Positions 6,512 to 17,387 of a stretch of DNA of 64,000 bases are shown here, one piece after another. This DNA comes from Planctomycetota bacterium (GTDB taxonomy: Bacteria; Planctomycetota; UBA1135). The stretch covers positions 1-64,000 of the forward strand of contig PAHY01000022.1 of the NCBI GenBank assembly GCA_002705055.1. Direction: 5' to 3'. Position 1 is the first letter of the stretch. Each line of letters starts with the position of its first letter. The position numbers and the translations under genes were made by a program. The notes below the pieces were generated by a model, which saw only the letters and a list, made by a program, of their open reading frames with translations, made no database searches and had not been told where the DNA came from.

Positions 6512-6928
6512 CTAGAGCAGCGGGGCGCGCTCGATCTCTTCCAGGCCCGCCGGACGCTGGCCGTGACGCGCCGTCACCGTGGTGGCGATGCCGCCGCGGA
6601 TGTTGAACTCCCCGCGCACCTCCATCCAGACGGGATCGGTCGCCGCCACCAGATCGGCGAGGATGCGGTTGGTCACGTCCTCGTGGTAGTGGCCCTCGTT
6701 GCGATAGCTCCAGAGGTAGAGCTTGAAGGACTTCAGCTCGAAGCAGCGCGGGCCGGGCACGTAGCGCACCCGGATCGTGGCGAAGTCCGGCTGACCGGTC
6801 GCCGGGCAGTTGCAGGTGAACTCGCGGGTGACGCTCTCAATCTGATAGAGAGCCTCGGGCCGCGGATTGGGGAAGCACTCCAACTGCTTGGAGGGCTCGG
6901 TCGGGGTGCGCGGTTCGAGGGTGCTCAT
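6512..6928 (-). CDS. queF: NADPH-dependent 7-cyano-7-deazaguanine reductase QueF
   Basis: QueF reduces the nitrile preQ0 to the amine preQ1, the precursor of queuosine in tRNA. The 138-residue length is that of the short, unimodular type. The catalytic cysteine lies in FTCNCPATGQPDFA, the proton-donor aspartate in the QPD that follows, and the substrate/NADPH-binding motif is ELKSFKLYLWSYRNEGHYHED. The open frame runs upstream to 7042, but the homologous part begins at the ATG at 6928 (MSTLEPR). The other preQ0 genes (queC, queD, queE) are not in this window. A TATCTT hexamer lies 36 bases upstream on this strand, overlapping the box of the divergent gene at 6981. Confidence 0.95.
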   Translation of the reverse strand: MSTLEPRTPTEPSKQLECFPNPRPEALYQIESVTREFTCNCPATGQPDFATIRVRYVPGPRCFELKSFKLYLWSYRNEGHYHEDVTNRILADLVAATDPVWMEVRGEFNIRGGIATTVTARHGQRPAGLEEIERAPLL

Positions 6929-6968
6929 GGTTCTGCGAGGGCTCTCTCTAGGCCAGCGCCGGGCAAGA

Positions 6969-6974
6969 TACCAT
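6969..6974 (+). promoter_or_regulatory. TAnnnT box exactly 6 bases before the triple-hydrolase ATG
   Basis: TACCAT is followed by cgactc and then ATG at 6981. This places the predicted transcription start on or next to the A of the start codon, so the mRNA should be leaderless. No -35 or Shine-Dalgarno sequence is evident. The minus-strand hexamer TATCTT (6965-6970) overlaps it back to back and could serve queF. Confidence 0.55.
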
Positions 6975-6980
6975 CGACTC

Positions 6981-9656
6981 ATGCTGGCCACCCTCTCCGC
7001 CACTGCTCTGCTGCTCACCGCGGCGCCCCTGGCCCCTTCCATGCCTCAGCTGGACGGCACCCGCGAGGCCCCCCCGCGCAGCCTTCCCGAGCGCGGCGAG
7101 CCTGAACTGCAAGCGCCGGTGGTCAACGCGATGATGCGCAAGTTCATGCGCGAGCACCAGGTGCCGGGTGCCTCGCTGGCCATCTTCCGCCACGGCGATC
7201 CGGTCTACGTCCGGTCCTTCGGCTGGGCCGACCGCGAGACGCAGGAAGCCGTCCGGCCGGATTCGCTGTTTCGCATCGCCAGCATCTCCAAGCCGATCAC
7301 CGCGGTCGCGATCCTCAAGCTGGTCGAACAAGGCAAGCTGCAGCTAGACGCCAATCCCTTCGCGCTGATGGGCATGGCAGACGAGCTCGCCGAAGAAGGT
7401 CGCGATCCGCGCCTCGCCGAACTAACCATCGAACAGCTGCTGCAGCATCGCGCGGGATGGGACCGCAACAAGTCCTTTGATCCGATGTTCGTTCCGAATC
7501 GGGTGCGCAAGCACCTCGGCACCGAGGGTCCTCCCAGCACGGCGCAGATCATTCGCTTCATGCTCGATCAGCGGCTCGACTTCGACCCGGGTACGCGCTA
7601 CGCCTACAGCAACTTCGGCTATTGCCTGCTGGGGCGCGTCATCGAGGCCGTCAGCGGACAGGGTTACGAGGAGTTCGTGCAGCGCGAGATCCTGCAGCCG
7701 ATCGGCGTGCGGGGCATGCGACTGGGGCGTTCCTTGCCCGAGCAGCGCTGGCCGAAGGAAGTGCACTACTACGATCAGCGCGGTCGCACCGGCTTTGCGG
7801 CCGTGGCCCCCGGGCGCCGGGTCGAGTCCGGTTACACCCACGACCAAGAGGTCCTCGACGCGCACGGAGGCTGGGTGGCCAGCGCCCAGGACTTGGCGCG
7901 CTTCGCCGCGGCTTTCGCCGATCCGGCCGCCTCGCCGCTGCTCTCCGAGGCGTCCATCGAGCGCATGTGGGCCCGCCCCGCTGGCGCCGAGGGCAAAGTC
8001 TGGTACGGCATGGGCTGGAGCGTCCGGGAACTGAGCGAGGGTCGTCTCAACGCCTGGCACAGCGGCCTGCTGACCGGCGGCACCTCCACCCTGTTCGTGC
8101 GCCGCCACGATGGCTACACCTGGTCGATCCTGTTCAACTCGGATCGCAGCGCCAAGGAGTCGGGCTGGCTGGCAGGCAAGATGGACCCGCTGATTCACCA
8201 GGCGGTCGACCAGGAGCAGGCCTGGGGCGATACGGCGAGCCTGGCGAGCCAAGAGGCGGCCGCGCCGCAGGCACCCCAGTTTCAGCCCGGACAGGTCGAG
8301 GTGGATGGCCAGAGCTTCCCCTACCAACTGCTGATTCCGGCCGAGCTGGAAGAGGGCAAGAGCTATCCGCTGATCCTCTTCCTGCACGGCGCGGGCGAGC
8401 GCGGCTCCGACAACGAGGCGCAGAAGCGCCACTTCCCCGAGCGCATCGCCCGCATGATGGCCGACGGCGCGCCGCCGGCTTTCGTGCTCGCCCCGCAGTG
8501 TCCGCGCGGGGTGTGGTGGTCGAGCCGCCCGCGCCCGGACGGCCCCGCGCTGCTGGAGCGCGCGGCCGGCGCGCCGCTGCGGGCCGCGATGGCGGCGCTC
8601 GAGGAGGTCGTGCAGACCCAGCCGATTGACCGCGACCGCATCGCGCTGACGGGACTGTCGATGGGCGGCTTCGGCTCCTGGGAGCTGGCGGCGCGCCGGC
8701 CCGGCTGGTTCAGCGGCGTCATCCCCATCTGCGGCGGCGGCGACCCGGACTCGATGCTCGCGCTTGCCGGGCTGCCGATTCAGGTCTGGCATGGCGGCGC
8801 CGACACGGTCGTGCCGCCGTCCGCCTCGCGCGAGCTGGTCGCCGCGCTGCAAAAGGCCAAACTCCCGGTGCAGTACTTCGAGCTGGAGGGAGTGGGCCAC
8901 GACAGCTGGACCGCGGCCTACGGGGACGCGCGCGTGCTCGCGCAGCTCCGCGAAGCGCGGCGTCAGCCGCTGCGGATGCTGGCCGAGCGCACCCGCCTGC
9001 TGGCGGAGCTCGTCGACCCGCAGGAACGCATCGCCTTTCTGGGTGACTCGATCACGCAGGCGGGTCACAACGCCGGCGGCTATGTCGATCTGCTGCGCAA
9101 AGGACTGCGCACGGTGCACCCGGAGATCGGCATCATTCCCGCCGGCATCAGCGGCCACAAGGTGCCGGACCTGCTGAAGCGCTACGAGAAGGATGTGATC
9201 GAGGCCGGCGCGACCGTCGTCTTCATCTACATCGGCATCAATGATGTCTGGCATTCGCTGCGCGATCGCGGCACGCCGATCGACGCGTTCGAGGCGGGGC
9301 TACGCGAGCTGATCGCCGGCCTGCGCGCCAGCGGTGCGGAGGTCGTGCTGGCGACGCCCAGCGTGATCGGCGAGAAGACGCCGGGGCAGAACCAGCTCGA
9401 CGAGATGCTGGACGCCTACGCCGCGGTCAGTCGACGCATCGCCCGCGAGGAGGGCCTGGTGCTGTGCGATCTGCGCCGCTCCTTCCAGGAGCAGCTGCGG
9501 ATCTTCGGCGACCCGGCCGCGGATCGCGGCGCGCTCACCCGCGATGGCGTGCATCTGACGCCGGCCGGCAATCAATGGGTCGCGATCGAGGCCGCGGCAG
9601 CCCTTCGCGAGGCCGTGGCGCGACGTCAGGCTGCGCGCGAACAGGCGAAGGACTAG
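6981..9656 (+). CDS. Secreted fusion: serine beta-lactamase-like + alpha/beta hydrolase + SGNH hydrolase
   Basis: An 891-residue exported protein with a signal peptide (about residues 1-18) and three complete hydrolase domains in one frame. Domain 1 (about 40-420) is a class C beta-lactamase/DD-peptidase-like domain with SISK near 101, YSN near 208 and HSG near 360. Domain 2 (about 430-670) is an alpha/beta hydrolase of the esterase/peptidase type with oxyanion motif LHGAGERG near 469, nucleophile GLSMGG near 557, acid in GGADTVVPP and GHDSW histidine near 639. Domain 3 (about 680-880) is an SGNH/GDSL hydrolase with FLGDSITQ near 685, YIGIND near 750 and DGVHLTPAG near 854. All three sets of catalytic residues look intact. 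It could act stepwise on acylated or esterified polymers outside the cell; the substrate is unknown. It ends immediately before the stop codon of the convergent GT gene. Confidence 0.9.
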   Translation: MLATLSATALLLTAAPLAPSMPQLDGTREAPPRSLPERGEPELQAPVVNAMMRKFMREHQVPGASLAIFRHGDPVYVRSFGWADRETQEAVRPDSLFRIASISKPITAVAILKLVEQGKLQLDANPFALMGMADELAEEGRDPRLAELTIEQLLQHRAGWDRNKSFDPMFVPNRVRKHLGTEGPPSTAQIIRFMLDQRLDFDPGTRYAYSNFGYCLLGRVIEAVSGQGYEEFVQREILQPIGVRGMRLGRSLPEQRWPKEVHYYDQRGRTGFAAVAPGRRVESGYTHDQEVLDAHGGWVASAQDLARFAAAFADPAASPLLSEASIERMWARPAGAEGKVWYGMGWSVRELSEGRLNAWHSGLLTGGTSTLFVRRHDGYTWSILFNSDRSAKESGWLAGKMDPLIHQAVDQEQAWGDTASLASQEAAAPQAPQFQPGQVEVDGQSFPYQLLIPAELEEGKSYPLILFLHGAGERGSDNEAQKRHFPERIARMMADGAPPAFVLAPQCPRGVWWSSRPRPDGPALLERAAGAPLRAAMAALEEVVQTQPIDRDRIALTGLSMGGFGSWELAARRPGWFSGVIPICGGGDPDSMLALAGLPIQVWHGGADTVVPPSASRELVAALQKAKLPVQYFELEGVGHDSWTAAYGDARVLAQLREARRQPLRMLAERTRLLAELVDPQERIAFLGDSITQAGHNAGGYVDLLRKGLRTVHPEIGIIPAGISGHKVPDLLKRYEKDVIEAGATVVFIYIGINDVWHSLRDRGTPIDAFEAGLRELIAGLRASGAEVVLATPSVIGEKTPGQNQLDEMLDAYAAVSRRIAREEGLVLCDLRRSFQEQLRIFGDPAADRGALTRDGVHLTPAGNQWVAIEAAAALREAVARRQAAREQAKD

Positions 9657-11180
9657 TCAGTCCTGCGCGCCCGCCCCTTGGCCTGGTGAGAAGTCCAGGC
9701 GGTGTAGCTGCGTGCCCTCGAAGTACAGCGATGCGACGCGCGGCGCGCGCTGTTCGAGCGCCGCGCCGAGCACGCCCGTCGGGTGTGGAGCATCCCAATC
9801 CTGCTCGAATAGGAACCAGACCTGGCCGGTCAACTCCAGCTCGCTCGCCTGGCGGAGGAGACCGCTCAGCCCCTCTCCGGCCATCGCACCTTCGATCAGC
9901 CGGACCCCCTTCGGCAAAGCACACGCAGGATCGTGCTGGGAGTAGTACAGGAAGGACGCGAGGCTGCGACTATGGACCAGCAGGGTGTCGCCTGGCTGGA
10001 TGTGATCCTGCAGAGCGAGCAGCGCCTGCCGCGTCTGCACCGCCGGGGTCGGGCGCAAAAAGAGCGGCGCCGTCGCCAGCAGGCTGAGCCCAAGGAGGAG
10101 CCCCGCGGTGCCCCGGCTGCCCTGACGAAGCTCGATCCAGCCGCGCGCCGCCCCCCACGCTACGAGCGGGGCGAACACCAGCAGGAAGCGTCCGATGAAG
10201 GGATAGAAGCCGAGCGCCGAGGCCAGCGCCGCGGCGAGTAGCGGACCAAGCAGCATCCCGAGCTGAGCCGACCTTTCCCGCCACAAGGCGCGCAGTCCGA
10301 GTCCGACGAGCAGCGCCAGCAGCGCGGCGAGATAGGGAGCGAAGTCGCCGCTTGGATGCGCGTAGCGCGTTTGGAACGGCGCCAGCAGTAGGTCGAAGGG
10401 CGCGCGCGCGAGCAGCCCCAGATCGCGCGCTTCGGTCGGCGGCAGCGGCAGGAAGGCGTTCTGCCAGTAGTGCGCGAAGGCCTCGTTGCTCGCCGAATCC
10501 GCGGCGGCGAGCTGCCAGAGCAGCAGAAAACTGCTGAGCCAGGCCGCGGCGACGCCGAGGGGCAGCGCGAGCGACAGCTTTTGTTCGCGCACCAGCGACC
10601 AGGCCAGCGCCGGCCCCACCCCGGCGAGCACGAAGACGCTGGCGAAGCTGAACCACGGGACCAGCAGGCCAAGCGCCGCGAGCGCGCCGATCCTGCCAAC
10701 GTTGGGGCGCTCCATGACCCGCTGCGCAAGCGCCAGGATCAGCACGCAGCTCAGCGCGTCGAAGGCGTAGGGTTTCAGCTCGGCGCCGAACTGAATCAGC
10801 CCGGGCATCAGCGCGAACAGCCAGACCGCGGCGGCAGCGGCCGGGCCGGGCAGGCTCGCGCGCGCCCAAGCGGCGAAGGCCAGCAGCGCGAGCAGCGAGG
10901 CAAGGAGCGCCGGGAAACGCAGCGCGTGCGCGCTGCCCTGCCCCGCCTCGCCGCTGAGCTTGCTGGCAAGCAGAAACGCGGGGGGCGCGGCCTGGTCGCC
11001 GTCCAGGGGTTCGAGCAGGCCGCTTGCCTCGCGTTCGGCGAGGTTCAGCGCGGTGAGCGCTTCGTCCAGCCAGAGCGCCCGCTCGGGCAGAAAGAAACCA
11101 ACGCGGAGCAGCAGGCCCAGCAAACAGCCGAGCAGCAGCCACCGCGGCGCCGCGGCCTCCGAGAACCAGCTCTCGCGCAC
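9657..11180 (-). CDS. GT-C (GT39/ArnT-like) membrane glycosyltransferase
   Basis: A 507-residue polytopic membrane protein with about ten to twelve hydrophobic segments and a soluble C-terminal part of about 100 residues. The first extracytoplasmic loop holds the acidic signature FFLPERALWLDEALTALN, matching the catalytic D/E loop of GT-C enzymes. ELKPYAFDAL resembles the KxYxLD motif of the GT39/PMT-like group. These enzymes move a sugar from a polyprenyl-phosphate donor to a lipid, protein or glycan on the outer face of the inner membrane. Start is GTG at 11180, exactly 6 bases after a TAGGAT box. It lies downstream of the VTC-DUF4956-HlyD operon on the same strand and may work with it in surface-glycan assembly (inference). 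Confidence 0.75.
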   Translation of the reverse strand: MRESWFSEAAAPRWLLLGCLLGLLLRVGFFLPERALWLDEALTALNLAEREASGLLEPLDGDQAAPPAFLLASKLSGEAGQGSAHALRFPALLASLLALLAFAAWARASLPGPAAAAAVWLFALMPGLIQFGAELKPYAFDALSCVLILALAQRVMERPNVGRIGALAALGLLVPWFSFASVFVLAGVGPALAWSLVREQKLSLALPLGVAAAWLSSFLLLWQLAAADSASNEAFAHYWQNAFLPLPPTEARDLGLLARAPFDLLLAPFQTRYAHPSGDFAPYLAALLALLVGLGLRALWRERSAQLGMLLGPLLAAALASALGFYPFIGRFLLVFAPLVAWGAARGWIELRQGSRGTAGLLLGLSLLATAPLFLRPTPAVQTRQALLALQDHIQPGDTLLVHSRSLASFLYYSQHDPACALPKGVRLIEGAMAGEGLSGLLRQASELELTGQVWFLFEQDWDAPHPTGVLGAALEQRAPRVASLYFEGTQLHRLDFSPGQGAGAQD

Positions 11181-11186
11181 GCGCGC

Positions 11187-11192
11187 ATCCTA
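11187..11192 (-). promoter_or_regulatory. TAGGAT box exactly 6 bases before the GT-C gene GTG
   Basis: On the minus strand CGGCTAGGAT is followed by 6 bases and the GTG at 11180. The geometry implies a leaderless mRNA and a promoter separate from the HlyD gene upstream. The context GCGGCTAG(A/G)AT recurs before gltX and trmFO. Confidence 0.55.
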
Positions 11193-11223
11193 GCCGCGCA
11201 GGCACCCCGCCTGCGAGCCCGGA

Positions 11224-12429
11224 CTAGGGGCGAATCGGAACGACCCCGACGCGTTCGCCCGGGCGTAGCTCCAGATCAACCGGCGCGTCCAGCCGCAGCG
11301 TGCGGCCAAACTCGGCGACGCGCGGGTCGTACCAGAGGCGCGACGGCAGCTCGACCAGGCCAGGCGATGCAGCCAGCACGGCGGCCTCGCCGCTGTCGTA
11401 ACCGCGGCGAACCAGGAAGCGATCGCCGACGGCGACCGAAAGAAGCTCCGACTCGGGCAGATAGACCAGCACGCCGCGGGCGCGATCCTGCTCAAGCCGC
11501 AGCAGTTCCTGAGCCAGCACCACCGTCTCGCCGGGCTGGGCGAGCAGGCTGGCGACCCGGCCCCCCTGCGGTGCCCGGACGAGCAGACCATCGACCCGCG
11601 CTTCGATCCCGCTGAGGCGTGCGCGCTGCACCGCGAGCGCGGCCTGATGCCCGGCGAGGCGCTCTTCGATGCGCGGATCCAGGACCGTGCTGGTCGGCAG
11701 CCCAGGAGTGAGGCCCTCGAAGTCGGCGCGCCAGCGTCGGGTCTCGGCGACGGCCGTGAGAGCGCGCTCTTCCAGGTCGCGCGCGGCGCTCGCTTTGGCC
11801 ACGGCTTGATCCAGCTCGGCGCGCAGATCCTCGACCTCCGCCGCGGAGCCGACCTCGCCCTCCAGCAGCCCCTCCGCGCGGCTGAGCCGCAGCTGGACAC
11901 GCTCCTGTTCGAGTTCGGCGTCGACGCGCTCGAGGGTCGCGGCGAGGGCATCGAGCTGGGCGCGCTGCTCTTCGACGCGGAAGGAACGCAGCCGGCGGGC
12001 CTGCTCGAAGGCAGCCTCTTCCTCGGCATCCGCGAGGGTGTCGGTGGCGTTCTGCCGCAGCTGCGCATCGGCCAGCTCGAACTCGACGCGCTGAGCCAGC
12101 AGCGCGGCCTCAAGTCGGGCGGACTCCGCGCGGGCCTCGACCAGCTGGGCGTCGAGATCGCTGCTTGCCAGAGCCAACAGCACCTGGCCGGGACGCACCG
12201 GATCAAAGAGATCCACGAAGACCTCTTCGACGAGGCCGGCCTCGGGAGCGGCGACCACGACTTCGTCGCCCAGCCCCAGACCGACCAGGGGCGCCGTCTT
12301 CGGGGTCTGCATCCAGAGCACGGCGATCAACGCCCAGCCACCCAGCCACACCAGCAGAGGCAGCAGCTGGAGCCGCAGCTCCCGCAGATGTTCGCGCAAT
12401 GGCGTGCGGATCGGACCGAGTTCGCTCAT
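11224..12429 (-). CDS. HlyD-type membrane fusion protein
   Basis: A 401-residue periplasmic adaptor anchored by one transmembrane helix (about residues 23-43). A first biotinyl-lipoyl half-domain follows (about 55-88, VVAAPEAGLVEEV..PVRPGQVL), then a long alpha-helical hairpin/coiled coil rich in Glu, Arg and Ala (about 90-245), then the second lipoyl half (about 285-310, VRAPQGGRVASLLAQPGE) and a beta-barrel end with a PGERVGVVPI motif. Such proteins link an inner-membrane exporter to an outer-membrane channel, but no transporter gene is adjacent. Start and the upstream stop (DUF4956) abut exactly (12429/12430), indicating one operon with the VTC and DUF4956 genes. It may be part of a polymer or protein export device. 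Confidence 0.85.
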   Translation of the reverse strand: MSELGPIRTPLREHLRELRLQLLPLLVWLGGWALIAVLWMQTPKTAPLVGLGLGDEVVVAAPEAGLVEEVFVDLFDPVRPGQVLLALASSDLDAQLVEARAESARLEAALLAQRVEFELADAQLRQNATDTLADAEEEAAFEQARRLRSFRVEEQRAQLDALAATLERVDAELEQERVQLRLSRAEGLLEGEVGSAAEVEDLRAELDQAVAKASAARDLEERALTAVAETRRWRADFEGLTPGLPTSTVLDPRIEERLAGHQAALAVQRARLSGIEARVDGLLVRAPQGGRVASLLAQPGETVVLAQELLRLEQDRARGVLVYLPESELLSVAVGDRFLVRRGYDSGEAAVLAASPGLVELPSRLWYDPRVAEFGRTLRLDAPVDLELRPGERVGVVPIRP

Positions 12430-13116
12430 CTAGATTTCGGCCAGCTCGTCCTGGAGGACCAGAGAGACGTCATCGACCCGGCCGAGGCCGCGCATGGCGG
12501 CGACCAGCTCTTCGCCGCGACGGCGATCGCGCATGCGGACCTGGAAGATGAACTCGGTCACGGCGTCGCCTTGCCGCACCGAGAGCGACTCGAAACGTCG
12601 GCAGTGTCGGCGCATGACCGCCTGGAAACCGCCTTCCTCCGCCCGCGGACCTTCGACGCGGAAGCTGAGGTGGCCGTCAAAGAAGCCGCGCGTCCCGAAG
12701 CGAACCCAAGCCAAGTACACCGTGGCTCCCAGCAGGCAGAGCGTCGCGACGATCGCGGCGGCGAAACGTCCGCTGCCGATCGCCAGGCCCAGCACCAGCG
12801 CATAGAACACGAAGACGGTGTCACGCGTGTCCTTGAGCACGTTGCGGAAGCGGATGATCGCGAGCGCGCCGATGAGTCCAAACGCGGTCACGATGCTGTC
12901 GCCGATCACGTGCATGACCAGCGAAACGATCATCATGAGCAGCACCAGACTTTGGGTGAAGGAACGCGCGTAGGACAGACCGGAGTGCGTGCGCTGATAA
13001 ACCCAGGCCACCATCTGCCCCAGCACGAATGCCAGGGTCAGTGACAGCAGCAGCGAGCGCAGCTCCGCCTCGGGGAGGGCGCTTTGCCAGCCGAATAGAC
13101 GCTCCAGGGTGTCCAC
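12430..13116 (-). CDS. DUF4956 membrane protein
   Basis: A 228-residue protein with about four transmembrane segments in its first 140 residues and a soluble C-terminal half. The family-specific core FGLIGALAIIRFRNVLKDTRDTVF is present near residue 80. DUF4956 proteins occur next to VTC-type triphosphate-tunnel proteins in many bacteria, often with CotH kinases; their role is unknown, and a channel or assembly function for a phosphate-containing or surface polymer has been supposed. Start is GTG at 13116, 12 bases after the VTC stop, and the stop abuts the HlyD start. The C-terminal domain (about 150-228) resembles a small regulatory alpha/beta domain, but I cannot name it. Confidence 0.85.
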   Translation of the reverse strand: MDTLERLFGWQSALPEAELRSLLLSLTLAFVLGQMVAWVYQRTHSGLSYARSFTQSLVLLMMIVSLVMHVIGDSIVTAFGLIGALAIIRFRNVLKDTRDTVFVFYALVLGLAIGSGRFAAAIVATLCLLGATVYLAWVRFGTRGFFDGHLSFRVEGPRAEEGGFQAVMRRHCRRFESLSVRQGDAVTEFIFQVRMRDRRRGEELVAAMRGLGRVDDVSLVLQDELAEI

Positions 13117-13128
13117 TTTGCGTTGTGC

Positions 13129-13908
13129 TTAGAGGGACGAGACGTGGCGCCAGCTGGGGCACACTGCTGTGCGTGCGAAATGATGCCGCAGATTGCCGCT
13201 GGCCTGCGCCGCGTTGACCGACATCACGTACTTCGGAATGGACTGCTTGTCGAGCTCGAAGCGCTGGACCAGCGCCGCGAGCCACGGAGGGCGGCGTTCA
13301 GTGAACTTCAGCTCGAGGATGACGCCGTCGAGAGGGGTGCGCTCCCAGTCGGTGCGCGGCGAGATGGCCTCGCCCGCGACCGGCAGTGCATGCTGCAGAT
13401 CCGTGTCGAAGGTCACCCGGACCGGCGTGTGTCCACGACATTCCCAAGCCTCGCGGTAGTAGCGAATCTGCATGCTTGGCCTTGCTCCCAGCCGCCGCAG
13501 CTGCTGATGAAACTCGGTGCGGGCCAGATCCTGACCTGCATCCAGCAGCTTGGCACGCTGGTCGTCGCTGAGCGGATCACGAGCCTTTCGCACGATTTGA
13601 TCGTTGCGCTTCTTGACTTCAGCGAAGATTGGCCCCTGCCCTTCGGCGTCGTAGTAGCGCAGCCGCAACTTGAAGCGATTGCGCGCGCCTTCGACGGTGT
13701 CTTGGAACAGGCGAAAGCCAGGGCTATCGAAGTACAGCGAATACACCCGATAACGGTGCTCTTCCTGCTTGGCCGAGAACGGGTCCAGACTGAGAAACGG
13801 CCGGATCTCCTCACGGATGCGGCGCGCACGCTCTTCGCTGACGAAGTACTTGCACTCGTAACGCGAAGTGAGTGTGCCGTCGATACCGGCCGAATGTGAA
13901 GTCTGCAT
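13129..13908 (-). CDS. VTC-domain (polyphosphate polymerase-like) protein
   Basis: A 259-residue soluble protein of the VTC/CYTH triphosphate tunnel superfamily. The tunnel's charged residues are visible: RYECKYFV near 17, RFKLRLRYY near 85, IFAEVKKRN near 101, SMQIRYYREAWE near 150, VRVTFDTDL and ILELKF near 215. In yeast Vtc4 this domain makes polyphosphate from ATP. In bacteria the DUF4956-linked branch has no settled activity. It is the first gene of an operon with DUF4956 and HlyD genes. A TATCCT box lies 9 bases before the ATG at 13908. Confidence 0.88.
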   Translation of the reverse strand: MQTSHSAGIDGTLTSRYECKYFVSEERARRIREEIRPFLSLDPFSAKQEEHRYRVYSLYFDSPGFRLFQDTVEGARNRFKLRLRYYDAEGQGPIFAEVKKRNDQIVRKARDPLSDDQRAKLLDAGQDLARTEFHQQLRRLGARPSMQIRYYREAWECRGHTPVRVTFDTDLQHALPVAGEAISPRTDWERTPLDGVILELKFTERRPPWLAALVQRFELDKQSIPKYVMSVNAAQASGNLRHHFARTAVCPSWRHVSSL

Positions 13909-13917
13909 GAGGAATTG

Positions 13918-13923
13918 AGGATA
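13918..13923 (-). promoter_or_regulatory. TATCCT -10 box for the VTC operon
   Basis: The minus-strand hexamer is followed by 9 bases (CAATTCCTC) and the ATG at 13908. It belongs to the TAnnnT series. The surrounding 60 bases are less GC-rich than the rest of the window. Confidence 0.45.
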
Positions 13924-13992
13924 TCACAGAGAATCCCCTTTGCGCACGGAACCGATGCCGCGATCCCCTTGCTTGGGAACGACTTGGAGCGA

Positions 13993-15198
13993 TTAGGCGG
14001 GCCCTTCCTGCGACCGGGGCTCGCGGCGCGCGGCCCCGCCGCAAAGCGGACCGATCACCGCCGCATACAGACCGCAGCCGAGAGCCAGTCGGCTCGCGGC
14101 GACGCCGTCGTCGAGGAGGGCGCCGAACAAGACGGGCGAAGCCGCCGTGCTGACCACCATCAGCGCGTGCTGCATCGAGCGGATCGCGCCCAGGTGGCGC
14201 GTGCCATACATCTCGGCCCAGAGCGCGCCGCCCAGCGAGCCGCCCGCGCCGGCCGACAGCCCCATCGCCCCCATGTAGAAGATCGCCGCGGCCTGCGAAC
14301 TGAACTGCGAGGCCACGAGGCAACCCGCCGCCATCGGCAGCAGGTAGAAGCGCAGCAGCTGACGCGCCCCTACCCGATCGATCCACCAGCCCATCGCCAG
14401 GCCGCCGAGCACCTGCAGGGTGGCGAAGACGACGAAGGCCGTCGCCAGCAGGCTCATCGGCCAGCCGCGATCTTCGGCGAGGGCCGCCTGATGGAAGAAC
14501 AAGCCGGTGATCACGAAAGGCGTCGTGAGCACCACCGGCAAGACGGCATAGAAGCGTCCATCACGCAGCACATCGCGCCGACTGGCCTGCCGCGCCTGCA
14601 CGTCCTCCTGCGCGGCGGTCTCGCTCGCGCCCTCTCCGAGCCGCCGCAGGAGAGGCAGCAAGAGCAGCAGCGCTCCCGCGGCGATCCACCAGAGCGCGCG
14701 CCAGCCCCAGTCCTCGAGCCCGGCGACGACCAGGATCGGAAAGAGAGCCTCCCCCGCCGGAAAGCCGAGCTGCGAAACCGCAAGCGCGCGGCCCCGCGCT
14801 TGGTGGAAGGAGCGCGCGATCGTGGTCATCGCGATGTGCCCCATCAGCCCCTGTCCGCATTGGCGAATCAGAAAGATGCCGACGAACAGCAGCGCCGGCC
14901 CCGGCGCGAGCGCGAGCAGCGCGCAGCCCAAGGCGAAGGCGAGCACCGCCCCCGTCGTATAACGCGGCAGCGGCATGCGGTCGATGCCGCGGCCGACCTG
15001 AACGATCACGAGGCCGCTCAGCAGGGTCGCCCCGCTGTAGAGCGAACCCATGCCGGCATGCGAGAGCGTGAACTCGGTGCGCCAGGCATCGGTGAACAGA
15101 CCAACGAAGAAGGTCTGCCCGAAGGCCGAGAACAGCGTCGCCAGAAAGGCCAGGCCCAGCAGGCGCTGCGGGCGCGCGCTTACTTCGGCGGGGCCCAC
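13993..15198 (-). CDS. MFS transporter
   Basis: A 401-residue carrier with about twelve hydrophobic segments and a charged central loop near residue 200 (ASETAAQEDVQARQASRRD). The first half carries MFS-like motifs, for example GRGIDRMPLPRY between TM2 and TM3. The layout resembles monocarboxylate/oxalate-type and nitrate-type MFS members, but I cannot assign a substrate. Its GTG start at 15198 lies inside the end of the upstream esterase-sulfatase gene (19-base overlap), so the two are probably translated together, and it may carry a sugar or acid released by that enzyme (inference). Confidence 0.85.
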   Translation of the reverse strand: MGPAEVSARPQRLLGLAFLATLFSAFGQTFFVGLFTDAWRTEFTLSHAGMGSLYSGATLLSGLVIVQVGRGIDRMPLPRYTTGAVLAFALGCALLALAPGPALLFVGIFLIRQCGQGLMGHIAMTTIARSFHQARGRALAVSQLGFPAGEALFPILVVAGLEDWGWRALWWIAAGALLLLLPLLRRLGEGASETAAQEDVQARQASRRDVLRDGRFYAVLPVVLTTPFVITGLFFHQAALAEDRGWPMSLLATAFVVFATLQVLGGLAMGWWIDRVGARQLLRFYLLPMAAGCLVASQFSSQAAAIFYMGAMGLSAGAGGSLGGALWAEMYGTRHLGAIRSMQHALMVVSTAASPVLFGALLDDGVAASRLALGCGLYAAVIGPLCGGAARREPRSQEGPA

Positions 15199-17387
15199 CA
15201 GGCGTCCAGCTTGGCCAGCAGCGCGGCGGTGCGCTGCGGATCGTCGAGCGGCTGCTGCTCCGCCGGATCCTTGAGCAGGTCGTAGAGTTCAGGACTGCGC
15301 TGCGGATCGGTGTGATCGAGCAGCTTGTAGCGCCCGTCGACGATGAAGCGGGTCACGAGGCCCTGCGTCGGCGCGTCCAGCGAAGCGACGTCGTGCTCAT
15401 AGGCCGCGCCAAACACGGGGGCGCGCCCTTCCCTGGCGACCTCGCGCAGATCCACCCCCGGCCAGTTGGCCGGCGGCTCGACCCCGCAGCAGGCCAGGAT
15501 GGTGGCCGGAAGGTCGACGCTGCTCACCGGCGTCGTCGATTGCTGCGGCGCGATCACGCCCGGCCAGGACAGCACGATCGGCGTGCGCACCCCGCCTTCA
15601 TAGGCGGTGCGCTTACTGCGCGGCGCGTAGCCGTTGCCCTGCTCGCGCTGGATCCAGCCGTTGTCGGTGACGAGCACGACCAAGGTGTTGTCGCGCTGGC
15701 CGGTCCGTTCGAGGTGCTCGATCAGCTCGCCGCAGCTCTGATCAAACCAGGCGCACATCGCCCGGTACTTGGCGACCGGCAAGGGAACGCCCTCGGCCTG
15801 GTACTGCGCGAGCAGCTCGGCCGGCGGATTGTGCGGCGTATGCGGCAGGAAGGGGGCGTACCACAGCAGCCAGGGCGTGCCCTCCGCCGCGCAGCGATCG
15901 ATGAACTCGGTCGCGGGCGCGAGACCTTCGCGCCCGATCTTCAGGCCGAGGTCGCCGTGGCGTCCGCCGCGCCTGGGGTCGCCGTGGGTCATGCCTTCGT
16001 CGAAGCCGCCGCGGGTGGCCGCGCCCTCCCACCACTTGCCGGTTTGCATGCTGCGGTAGTCGGCCTCGCGCAGCAGCTCGGGCAGCGTCTCGCAGGCGTC
16101 GATGCGGGCGAGCATCTCCATGCGGTCGGTGCCGCGCGGCGGGTCGTTGCCGGTGATGCCGTGCTGATGCGGGTGCAGCCCGGTCGCGAGCGTCGCCAGG
16201 CTGGGACGGCAGAGCGGCGCGGCCACGTAGCCGTGCGAATAGACCAGCCCGCTCGCCGCGAGCCGGTCCAGGTTCGGGGTCGCGACCGGCGATGAGCCGA
16301 GGAAGCCGTAGTCGGACCAGTGCTGGTCATCGGAAATGATGAACAGCACGTTGGGCTTCTCTGCACGCGGCTGCGGCCACTGCACGCTCGCCATCGCGTG
16401 CCCCAGGCGCTTGCCGACCTCGTAGTAGGTCTCGGCGTTGTGGTTGTAGTGATGCCCCTGACCGGTCGGCGAGACCTCGCGCGGGCGCCACAGGTCGCGC
16501 ACTTCGACGGTCCGCACGTTGTCGGCGAACTCGGGGTACTTGCCGCGCTCCCCGCTGACCGCGAGCTGCGCCTCGGCCACCGTCGCGCCGGCGCCGCGCA
16601 GCTTCCAGCCTTCAAAGGCGATGGTCGCCAGCACAAACTTCGCCTGCGGCGCGTCGAACTCCTGGCGCAGCGTCTTGATGAGGTGCACCAGGTTCTGCTC
16701 GTAGCGGCTGGCGTGCGCGGGGTTCTGATCCTTGTGCCCCTGCCACCAGACGAAGCCGGCGATCTCGATCGGCCGGCCGTCGTAATCGGGAAAGAACTTC
16801 TTCGGGTCGGCCAGCACCGCCTTGGTGTCGCGCACGAAGTCGTCGTACTGCTTGCCGGCGTACCAGTTGACCGGCTTCTTCTCTTCGCCCTCGATCCATG
16901 ACGGGGTGTCATCGCCGTACCCCGCATAGGTGCGGCCCTCGTGGACGAAGCGCTCGCTGTTTGGCGGCAGGATGTCCCAACCCAGGCTGCGGTTGCCCTG
17001 CGAGGCCTTGATCAGCAGCACCGGCTCCTTGTGCAGATCCCCGATCACCTGACCGAAGCCCAGCTCCGGCCCGAAGTGCCGCCCGACCGGCTGCAGCCAA
17101 CCCTGCCGCTGCTGCACCGTGACCTGCACCAGCCAGACGTCGTCGCGCGCCGCCCAGCTGCCGTCTTCGGCGACGAGCTCGGGGCAGCGCTCTTCCTTTT
17201 CGACCAGGTGTTGGAGCGTGCCCTGCTGCTCGACCGGCTCGATGCGCCCGAAGCCGACCATATTGGATTGGCCCATCAGGATGTAGACCGGAAGCGGCGC
17301 TTCATCCTGGGCTTCCTGCGCGGGCGCGGCCGCGGCCAGCGCGGCGCAGGCAAGGAGGAGGAACAGCCTGGGGAGGAGCTGCTGCAT
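15180..17387 (-). CDS. Secreted sialate O-acetylesterase-like + sulfatase fusion
   Basis: A 735-residue exported protein: signal peptide (about 1-23), an SGNH esterase domain of the sialate O-acetylesterase-like (SASA/DUF303) type (about 32-335), then a type I sulfatase domain (about 344-735). The esterase nucleophile is Ser41 in MGQSNMVG, with a histidine-rich GHHYNHNAETYY near 311 and the oxyanion motif WWQGHKD near 214. The sulfatase starts PNVLFIISDDQHW and has the modification site PLCRPSLATLATG (Cys393). The usual CxPSR site has Arg where this has Leu397. Metal-binding DD at 353-354 and TDNG are present. It probably removes acyl and sulfate esters from sulfated polysaccharide. It is the first gene of an operon with the MFS carrier. 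Confidence 0.92.
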   Translation of the reverse strand: MQQLLPRLFLLLACAALAAAAPAQEAQDEAPLPVYILMGQSNMVGFGRIEPVEQQGTLQHLVEKEERCPELVAEDGSWAARDDVWLVQVTVQQRQGWLQPVGRHFGPELGFGQVIGDLHKEPVLLIKASQGNRSLGWDILPPNSERFVHEGRTYAGYGDDTPSWIEGEEKKPVNWYAGKQYDDFVRDTKAVLADPKKFFPDYDGRPIEIAGFVWWQGHKDQNPAHASRYEQNLVHLIKTLRQEFDAPQAKFVLATIAFEGWKLRGAGATVAEAQLAVSGERGKYPEFADNVRTVEVRDLWRPREVSPTGQGHHYNHNAETYYEVGKRLGHAMASVQWPQPRAEKPNVLFIISDDQHWSDYGFLGSSPVATPNLDRLAASGLVYSHGYVAAPLCRPSLATLATGLHPHQHGITGNDPPRGTDRMEMLARIDACETLPELLREADYRSMQTGKWWEGAATRGGFDEGMTHGDPRRGGRHGDLGLKIGREGLAPATEFIDRCAAEGTPWLLWYAPFLPHTPHNPPAELLAQYQAEGVPLPVAKYRAMCAWFDQSCGELIEHLERTGQRDNTLVVLVTDNGWIQREQGNGYAPRSKRTAYEGGVRTPIVLSWPGVIAPQQSTTPVSSVDLPATILACCGVEPPANWPGVDLREVAREGRAPVFGAAYEHDVASLDAPTQGLVTRFIVDGRYKLLDHTDPQRSPELYDLLKDPAEQQPLDDPQRTAALLAKLDAWWAPPK

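Follow-up and report, generated by a model that had tools for sequence, protein, structure and literature searches.

A conserved VTC-DUF4956-HlyD gene set as a candidate polymerase-translocase joined to a trans-envelope conduit

Among the genes found in the 64,000-nucleotide stretch of the Planctomycetota contig PAHY01000022.1 (assembly GCA_002705055.1), here called the window, three adjacent ones encode a VTC-domain protein, a DUF4956 membrane protein and an HlyD-type periplasmic adaptor (Table 1). VTC and DUF4956 proteins are widespread in bacteria and their role is not known. We propose, with a probability of roughly 0.58, that this operon specifies a polymerase-translocase joined to a trans-envelope conduit, in which the cytosolic synthesis of polyphosphate would be coupled to its translocation via DUF4956 and its export by way of HlyD and a TolC-family channel. 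Gene neighbourhoods and sequence comparison argue strongly for an envelope-spanning export device, and the case for polyphosphate as the polymer is good but indirect. We infer the identity of the polymer, the pore role of DUF4956, the physical coupling and the export itself.

In the proposed mechanism, VTC would build polyphosphate in the cytosol from the gamma-phosphate of ATP, and the growing chain would be threaded into DUF4956, whose conserved basic loops would be turned toward the enzyme, and across the inner membrane. With its anchor in this membrane, HlyD would span the periplasm as a funnel between DUF4956 and a TolC-family channel (whose gene is adjacent in many relatives and elsewhere in the host genome), through which the polymer would exit. 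Outside the cell, secreted CotH kinases, the genes of which are usually linked to these and unlinked in the host, would act either on the product or together with it. In eukaryotic VTC, synthesis has been described as coupled to translocation along a basic path (PMC9911596, in excerpt).

Gene organization and host genome

The three genes are arranged head to tail on the minus strand in the order VTC, DUF4956, HlyD. The spacer between VTC and DUF4956 is 12 bases long, while the stop codon of DUF4956 finishes at 12430 and HlyD begins with its ATG at 12429, leaving no gap; the initial annotation had placed an HlyD-type gene third in the operon and abutting exactly, and these coordinates bear it out.

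Table 1. Coordinates of the operon genes, conserved motifs and flanking genes in the window
Feature	Position	Strand	Description
VTC-domain gene	13129..13908	minus	259 aa; PF09359 E 2e-34; predicted cytosolic polyphosphate polymerase
DUF4956 membrane protein gene	12430..13116	minus	228 aa, GTG start; PF16316 E 2e-12
DUF4956 residues 89-99, RFR...KD.RD	12820..12852	minus	basic loop between predicted membrane helices; from conservation
HlyD-type periplasmic adaptor (membrane fusion protein) gene	11224..12429	minus	401 aa, ATG start; PF13437 E 5e-8
RxxxLxxxxxxS (RLS) motif, HlyD residues 184-195, hairpin tip	11845..11880	minus	R184-x3-L188-x6-S195
GT-C-like ORF	9657-11180		507 aa, 43 bases downstream of HlyD; PMT_2 E 0.006, below family cut-off (sole Pfam match)
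MFS gene	13993-15198		directly upstream of VTC; best NCBIfam match lactate-transporter-like, far below cut-off

The host assembly comprises 3.85 Mb and is 85% complete, and its nearest named relatives by DUF4956, among the best 80 of 576 relatives, are Planctomycetota MAGs. A search of the whole assembly identified one VTC gene and one DUF4956 gene. HlyD_3 was found at 15 places, so that an adjacency by chance would be conceivable from this one genome, but the comparative data presented below exclude chance. PPK1 and PPK2 are present separately; VTC is therefore not the sole predicted polyphosphate enzyme of the host, which fits a special role for it.

Linkage of HlyD to VTC-DUF4956 across genomes

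With the window HlyD as query, matches were obtained in 23 of 41 genomes (host included), and most of the best ones had VTC-DUF4956 just upstream in the same order. As this genome set had been picked by HlyD, a survey based on DUF4956 was used instead. DUF4956 was present in 81 of 294 genomes sampled from the host phylum; about 16 kb was extracted for each DUF4956 place, genes were labelled with profile models built from these sequences, and counts were restricted to the 101 places where the home-built DUF4956 model also fires. VTC lay within 6 kb in 85 of these places, CotH within 8 kb in 72, and HlyD adjoined DUF4956 in 24, corresponding to 24 of the 96 places that either have an HlyD or extend 1.2 kb or more downstream.

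When the survey was combined with the other loci collected to that point (111 DUF4956 rows), HlyD was located downstream and on the same strand in 34 cases out of 34, with VTC immediately upstream of DUF4956 in 32 of them. In a DUF4956 tree of 106 rows all 34 HlyD rows fell within a single clade of 36 rows (SH-aLRT 99), and the presence of HlyD required 3 changes, compared to about 29 in shuffles. The tree was then enlarged to 178 rows including the best 80 of 576 relatives from a scan of named genomes, the query of which came from the HlyD clade and biased the scan toward it. Absence of HlyD from the operon in all relatives had been named in the initial annotation as an outcome that would speak against its proposal; in the enlarged tree, with these best 80 relatives, HlyD was found in 62 of the 66 clade rows (SH-aLRT 99). 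Three of the remaining rows (L138, L190, L203) run into contig ends about 110-135 bases from DUF4956, and only L137 truly lacks the gene. Eight named phyla are represented in the clade of this same tree: Planctomycetota, Acidobacteriota, Fibrobacterota, Spirochaetota, Bacteroidota, Thermodesulfobacteriota, Delongiibacteriota and, through one bin so labelled, Pseudomonadota. These comparisons indicate that HlyD is not incidental to VTC-DUF4956 and that it marks one DUF4956 clade across phyla.

A separate, fully supported DUF4956 group (L206, L213, L223) has HlyD upstream of VTC, Pfam confirming HlyD in L213 only. Since this group is distinct, the 178-row tree indicates that HlyD was recruited at least twice independently. 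HlyD was also missing from the monoderm loci surveyed: among the loci from the best 80 of 576 relatives it was found in 0 of 19 from phyla that we take to be monoderm (Bacillota, Chloroflexota, Actinomycetota, Mycoplasmatota) and in 32 of the 61 others, with which five loci without a phylum label were pooled (Fisher 2e-5), and with Planctomycetota excluded the figures were 13 of 40 against 0 of 19 (p 0.005), both p values being a guide only as the rows are related.

Adaptor, channel and membrane protein

The best solved-structure match of the HlyD profile was EmrA (4tko, E 2e-27). An AlphaFold2 model of the protein (pLDDT 91) presents the adaptor architecture, with a membrane helix, a barrel-sandwich, a long alpha-hairpin and a beta-barrel, and its top Foldseek matches were EmrA (E 3e-17) and MacA. 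The tip turn of the model comprises residues 190-196. The RLS motif at this tip (Table 1) has been reported as the TolC-binding element of HlyD, MacA and AcrA (available sections of PMC3391258), and in 27 HlyD alignment rows L188 was present in all, R184 in 22 and S or T at the last position in 13. The window HlyD thus carries what its motif and modelled hairpin turn identify as a TolC-docking tip.

Among 43 genes directly downstream of HlyD, nineteen matched OEP (PF02321, E 1e-3) and three matched CotH. A TolC-like gene adjoins HlyD in loci from Acidobacteriota, Spirochaetota, Delongiibacteriota, Fibrobacterota, Bacteroidota and Thermodesulfobacteriota, and also in phylum-survey members such as L102, L114 and L122. 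The HlyD neighbour scored above the Pfam OEP cut-off in these last three loci as well as in L201, L208, L199, L202, L188, L195, L098, L110, L117, L126, L184, L198 and L207; the one in L236 gave a weak match below cut-off (E 0.002), and those in L200, L204 and L209 gave no Pfam OEP match. A home-built OEP model, seeded with these same genes, links the neighbours in L200, L204 and L209 to the TolC family; its matches in L166 and L172 look spurious and were left out of the counts. No TolC gene was found beside the window operon, and close relatives are mostly without one in the stretches seen; elsewhere in the host genome there are 18 OEP matches.

DUF4956 is proposed here as the translocation pore. 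Its AlphaFold2 model (pLDDT 89) has five helices (residues 16-43, 51-71, 75-90, 97-114 and 118-138), followed by an ACT/ferredoxin-like C-terminal domain, and the ORF also gives a weak MgtC match. In the loop listed in Table 1, R89, F90 and R91 are invariant across 56 sequences, and D96, R98 and D99 are invariant too in 25 aligned sequences of the HlyD clade. Given a cytosolic ACT domain, both conserved basic loops of the modelled protein would face the cytosol. A sequence search of the PDB with DUF4956 gave no match, and hence no tie to the membrane domains of Vtc1 and Vtc4; a PDB fold search with the model, which covered almost only residues 144-227, gave none for the membrane part. In locus L042 (genome G010; 11401-12879, minus strand) VTC and DUF4956 are fused in a single ORF of 492 residues, which argues that the two proteins act together. 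Seven Poribacteria loci (L219, L226, L231, L234, L237, L244, L248) have DUF4956 without VTC in the sequenced stretch, CotH adjoining DUF4956 in five of them; in such loci DUF4956 may act without a linked VTC.

The VTC enzyme and its product

The VTC protein of the window scored 119 bits against PF09359 (curated cut-off 23), and a profile of 22 relatives matched yeast Vtc4 (3g3q, E 1e-22). The initial annotation had described the tunnel residues as intact, and this was confirmed: all nine catalytic and phosphate-binding tunnel positions of Vtc4 are kept in the window VTC, and each is conserved in 154-158 of the 158 VTC sequences from the surveyed loci. In Vtc4 numbering, K200, R264, K281, K294, R361, R373 and E426 were conserved in 158 of 158, the R266 position held 154 R and 4 K, and the K458 position was K in all 157 sequences with a letter there (158 aligned). 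K200, K281, K294, R361 and R373 are residues that we take to belong to the tunnel. R264, R266, E426 and K458 are named in the literature (parts of PMC4641920 and PMC9911596).

According to the accessible text of Martinez et al. (PMC4641920), TTM phosphatases have a second metal site with Glu residues whose counterparts in Vtc4 are basic or missing. Pairing these residues with window VTC positions by motif spacing, we found R16 in 137 of 137 sequences with a letter there and K201 in 158 of 158, basic as in Vtc4, while the third position, E18, held 156 E and 2 D among the 158 and is Thr in Vtc4. With the tunnel residues kept and two of the three second-metal positions basic, these enzymes look like polymerases at the level of sequence, the acidic E18 being the one departure.

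Retention of one of the three second-metal Glu residues at E18 leaves room for a triphosphate reaction other than polymerisation. The same machine could then export a product other than polyphosphate, VTC being a TTM enzyme that makes a nucleotide-derived or phosphorylated polymer. We consider this unlikely: the phosphatase-type E18 is nearly invariant, diverse reactions are described for TTM enzymes (sections of PMC4641920) and no bacterial VTC with measured activity was found in the literature searched, but R16 and K201 replace the other two Glu residues and the whole Vtc4 tunnel is kept.

CotH kinases, pel loci and flanking genes

Two CotH genes were found in the host genome, both unlinked, on contigs other than that of VTC-DUF4956-HlyD. 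The linked CotH proteins of other genomes carry LTD domains. A profile of 14 CotH sequences, including the two unlinked ones of the host, matched CotH 5jd9 (E 4e-45), and both catalytic Asp residues, reported as D228 and D251 in Bacillus CotH (PMC7821199, in excerpt), are kept in all 14. Tandem runs of four CotH-like genes (about 400-520 aa) follow DUF4956 in L154 (8414-13313) and L157 (6505-11885), and in L046 (3476-10946) VTC-DUF4956-HlyD is followed directly by three CotH genes. The source of ATP for Bacillus CotH has been called an unanswered question (available text of PMC7821199). This question, together with the shared occurrence of CotH, VTC and DUF4956 and the retained catalytic Asp residues, is the ground for a further suggestion, distinctly doubtful at present, that exported polyphosphate might be the phosphoryl donor for secreted CotH kinases acting on surface proteins or polymers where ATP is absent.

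CotH-VTC-DUF4956 gene sets have been reported beside pel in streptococci, clostridia and bifidobacteria (parts of PMC7112168). In Streptococcus intermedius, deletion of DUF4956 or CotH altered Pel amount and aggregation, loss of the pel-adjacent VTC gene abolished neither Pel production nor aggregation, and a heading of the paper states that Pel production does not require these genes (PMC12345266, in excerpt). VTC, DUF4956 and CotH could accordingly regulate or decorate an exopolysaccharide, as proposed for the Gram-positive pel loci, with HlyD and TolC exporting that polysaccharide. The pel neighbourhoods and the deletion phenotypes favour such a role, but it appears quite improbable here in view of that heading and of the flanking genes: 105 genes flanking HlyD-bearing loci fell into 155 families, the 25 commonest of which included no glycosyltransferase or polysaccharide synthase, OEP being the commonest family among otherwise scattered enzymes, and the GT-C gene of the window is not conserved.

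For this GT-C gene no relatives were identified in 193 other loci (tblastn, E 1e-3), and no sigma-70-like promoter sites were found in 9400-14300; with its weak Pfam match, it was rejected as an operon partner. The initial annotation had linked a GT39-like transferase with its own promoter to the operon, and neither the link nor the promoter was recovered. Its broader suggestion, that the VTC-DUF4956 pair is part of an envelope-spanning device for polymer export, is well supported by the HlyD clade linkage, the frequent TolC neighbour, the RLS tip and the HlyD-less monoderm loci (among the best 80 of 576 relatives), and is retained here without the GT-C gene as a partner. Alternatively, HlyD could serve a drug or metabolite pump, perhaps one that includes the MFS protein, and simply be co-transcribed with VTC-DUF4956, as its resemblance to EmrA, the partner of an MFS pump, and the position of the MFS gene might suggest. 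This is very improbable: the MFS gene has no tblastn match (E 1e-3) among 193 other loci, whereas HlyD goes with DUF4956, and its best NCBIfam match, to a lactate-transporter-like family, is far below cut-off in the case of the MFS protein. The MFS gene was rejected as the pump of HlyD.

Two multidomain proteins are also encoded around these genes, one of 929 aa (6867-9656, plus strand) combining a beta-lactamase-type domain, an alpha/beta hydrolase and a GDSL lipase, and one of 735 aa (15180-17387, minus strand) in which a SASA-type carbohydrate esterase is fused to a sulfatase.

Significance and comparison with known systems

Across phyla, a polymerase, a membrane protein, an adaptor, an outer-membrane channel and a secreted kinase recur together as a stable set that HlyD joined on at least two occasions, which suggests a machine devoted to export. 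The proposed polymerase-translocase with its conduit would be a testable candidate mechanism by which bacteria might deliver polyphosphate, or a related polymer, to the cell exterior, would represent a bacterial equivalent of eukaryotic VTC, and could be an answer to what fuels extracellular CotH kinases. The proximity of CotH-VTC-DUF4956 to Gram-positive pel operons was already known (portions of PMC7112168); for the link to HlyD and TolC, no description of VTC-DUF4956 with either was found in the literature searched, a search that lay outside subscription journals and preprints.

The yeast vacuolar VTC complex (Vtc1/Vtc3/Vtc4) shares with the operon a TTM polymerase domain with identical tunnel residues. 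It also has a membrane-channel partner, with cytosolic synthesis coupled to translocation (PMC9911596, accessible part), a coupling that we infer for the bacterial operon. The bacterial set differs in that no SPX or Vtc1-type membrane domain was detected in the operon, in that sequence searches do not relate its membrane partner, DUF4956, to the yeast membrane domains, and in having in addition a periplasmic adaptor and, frequently, an outer-membrane channel. The accessory genes of Gram-positive pel loci comprise the same VTC, DUF4956 and CotH families (excerpts of PMC7112168 and PMC12345266), whereas here there are no recurrent pel genes, HlyD and TolC are added, and CotH is unlinked in the host. 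EmrAB-TolC, MacAB-TolC and HlyBD-TolC have in common with the present system the barrel-sandwich, long hairpin and RLS tip of the adaptor, and a TolC-family partner in many relatives; in place of an ABC, RND or conserved MFS pump, the predicted inner-membrane partner here is DUF4956 together with a polymerase.
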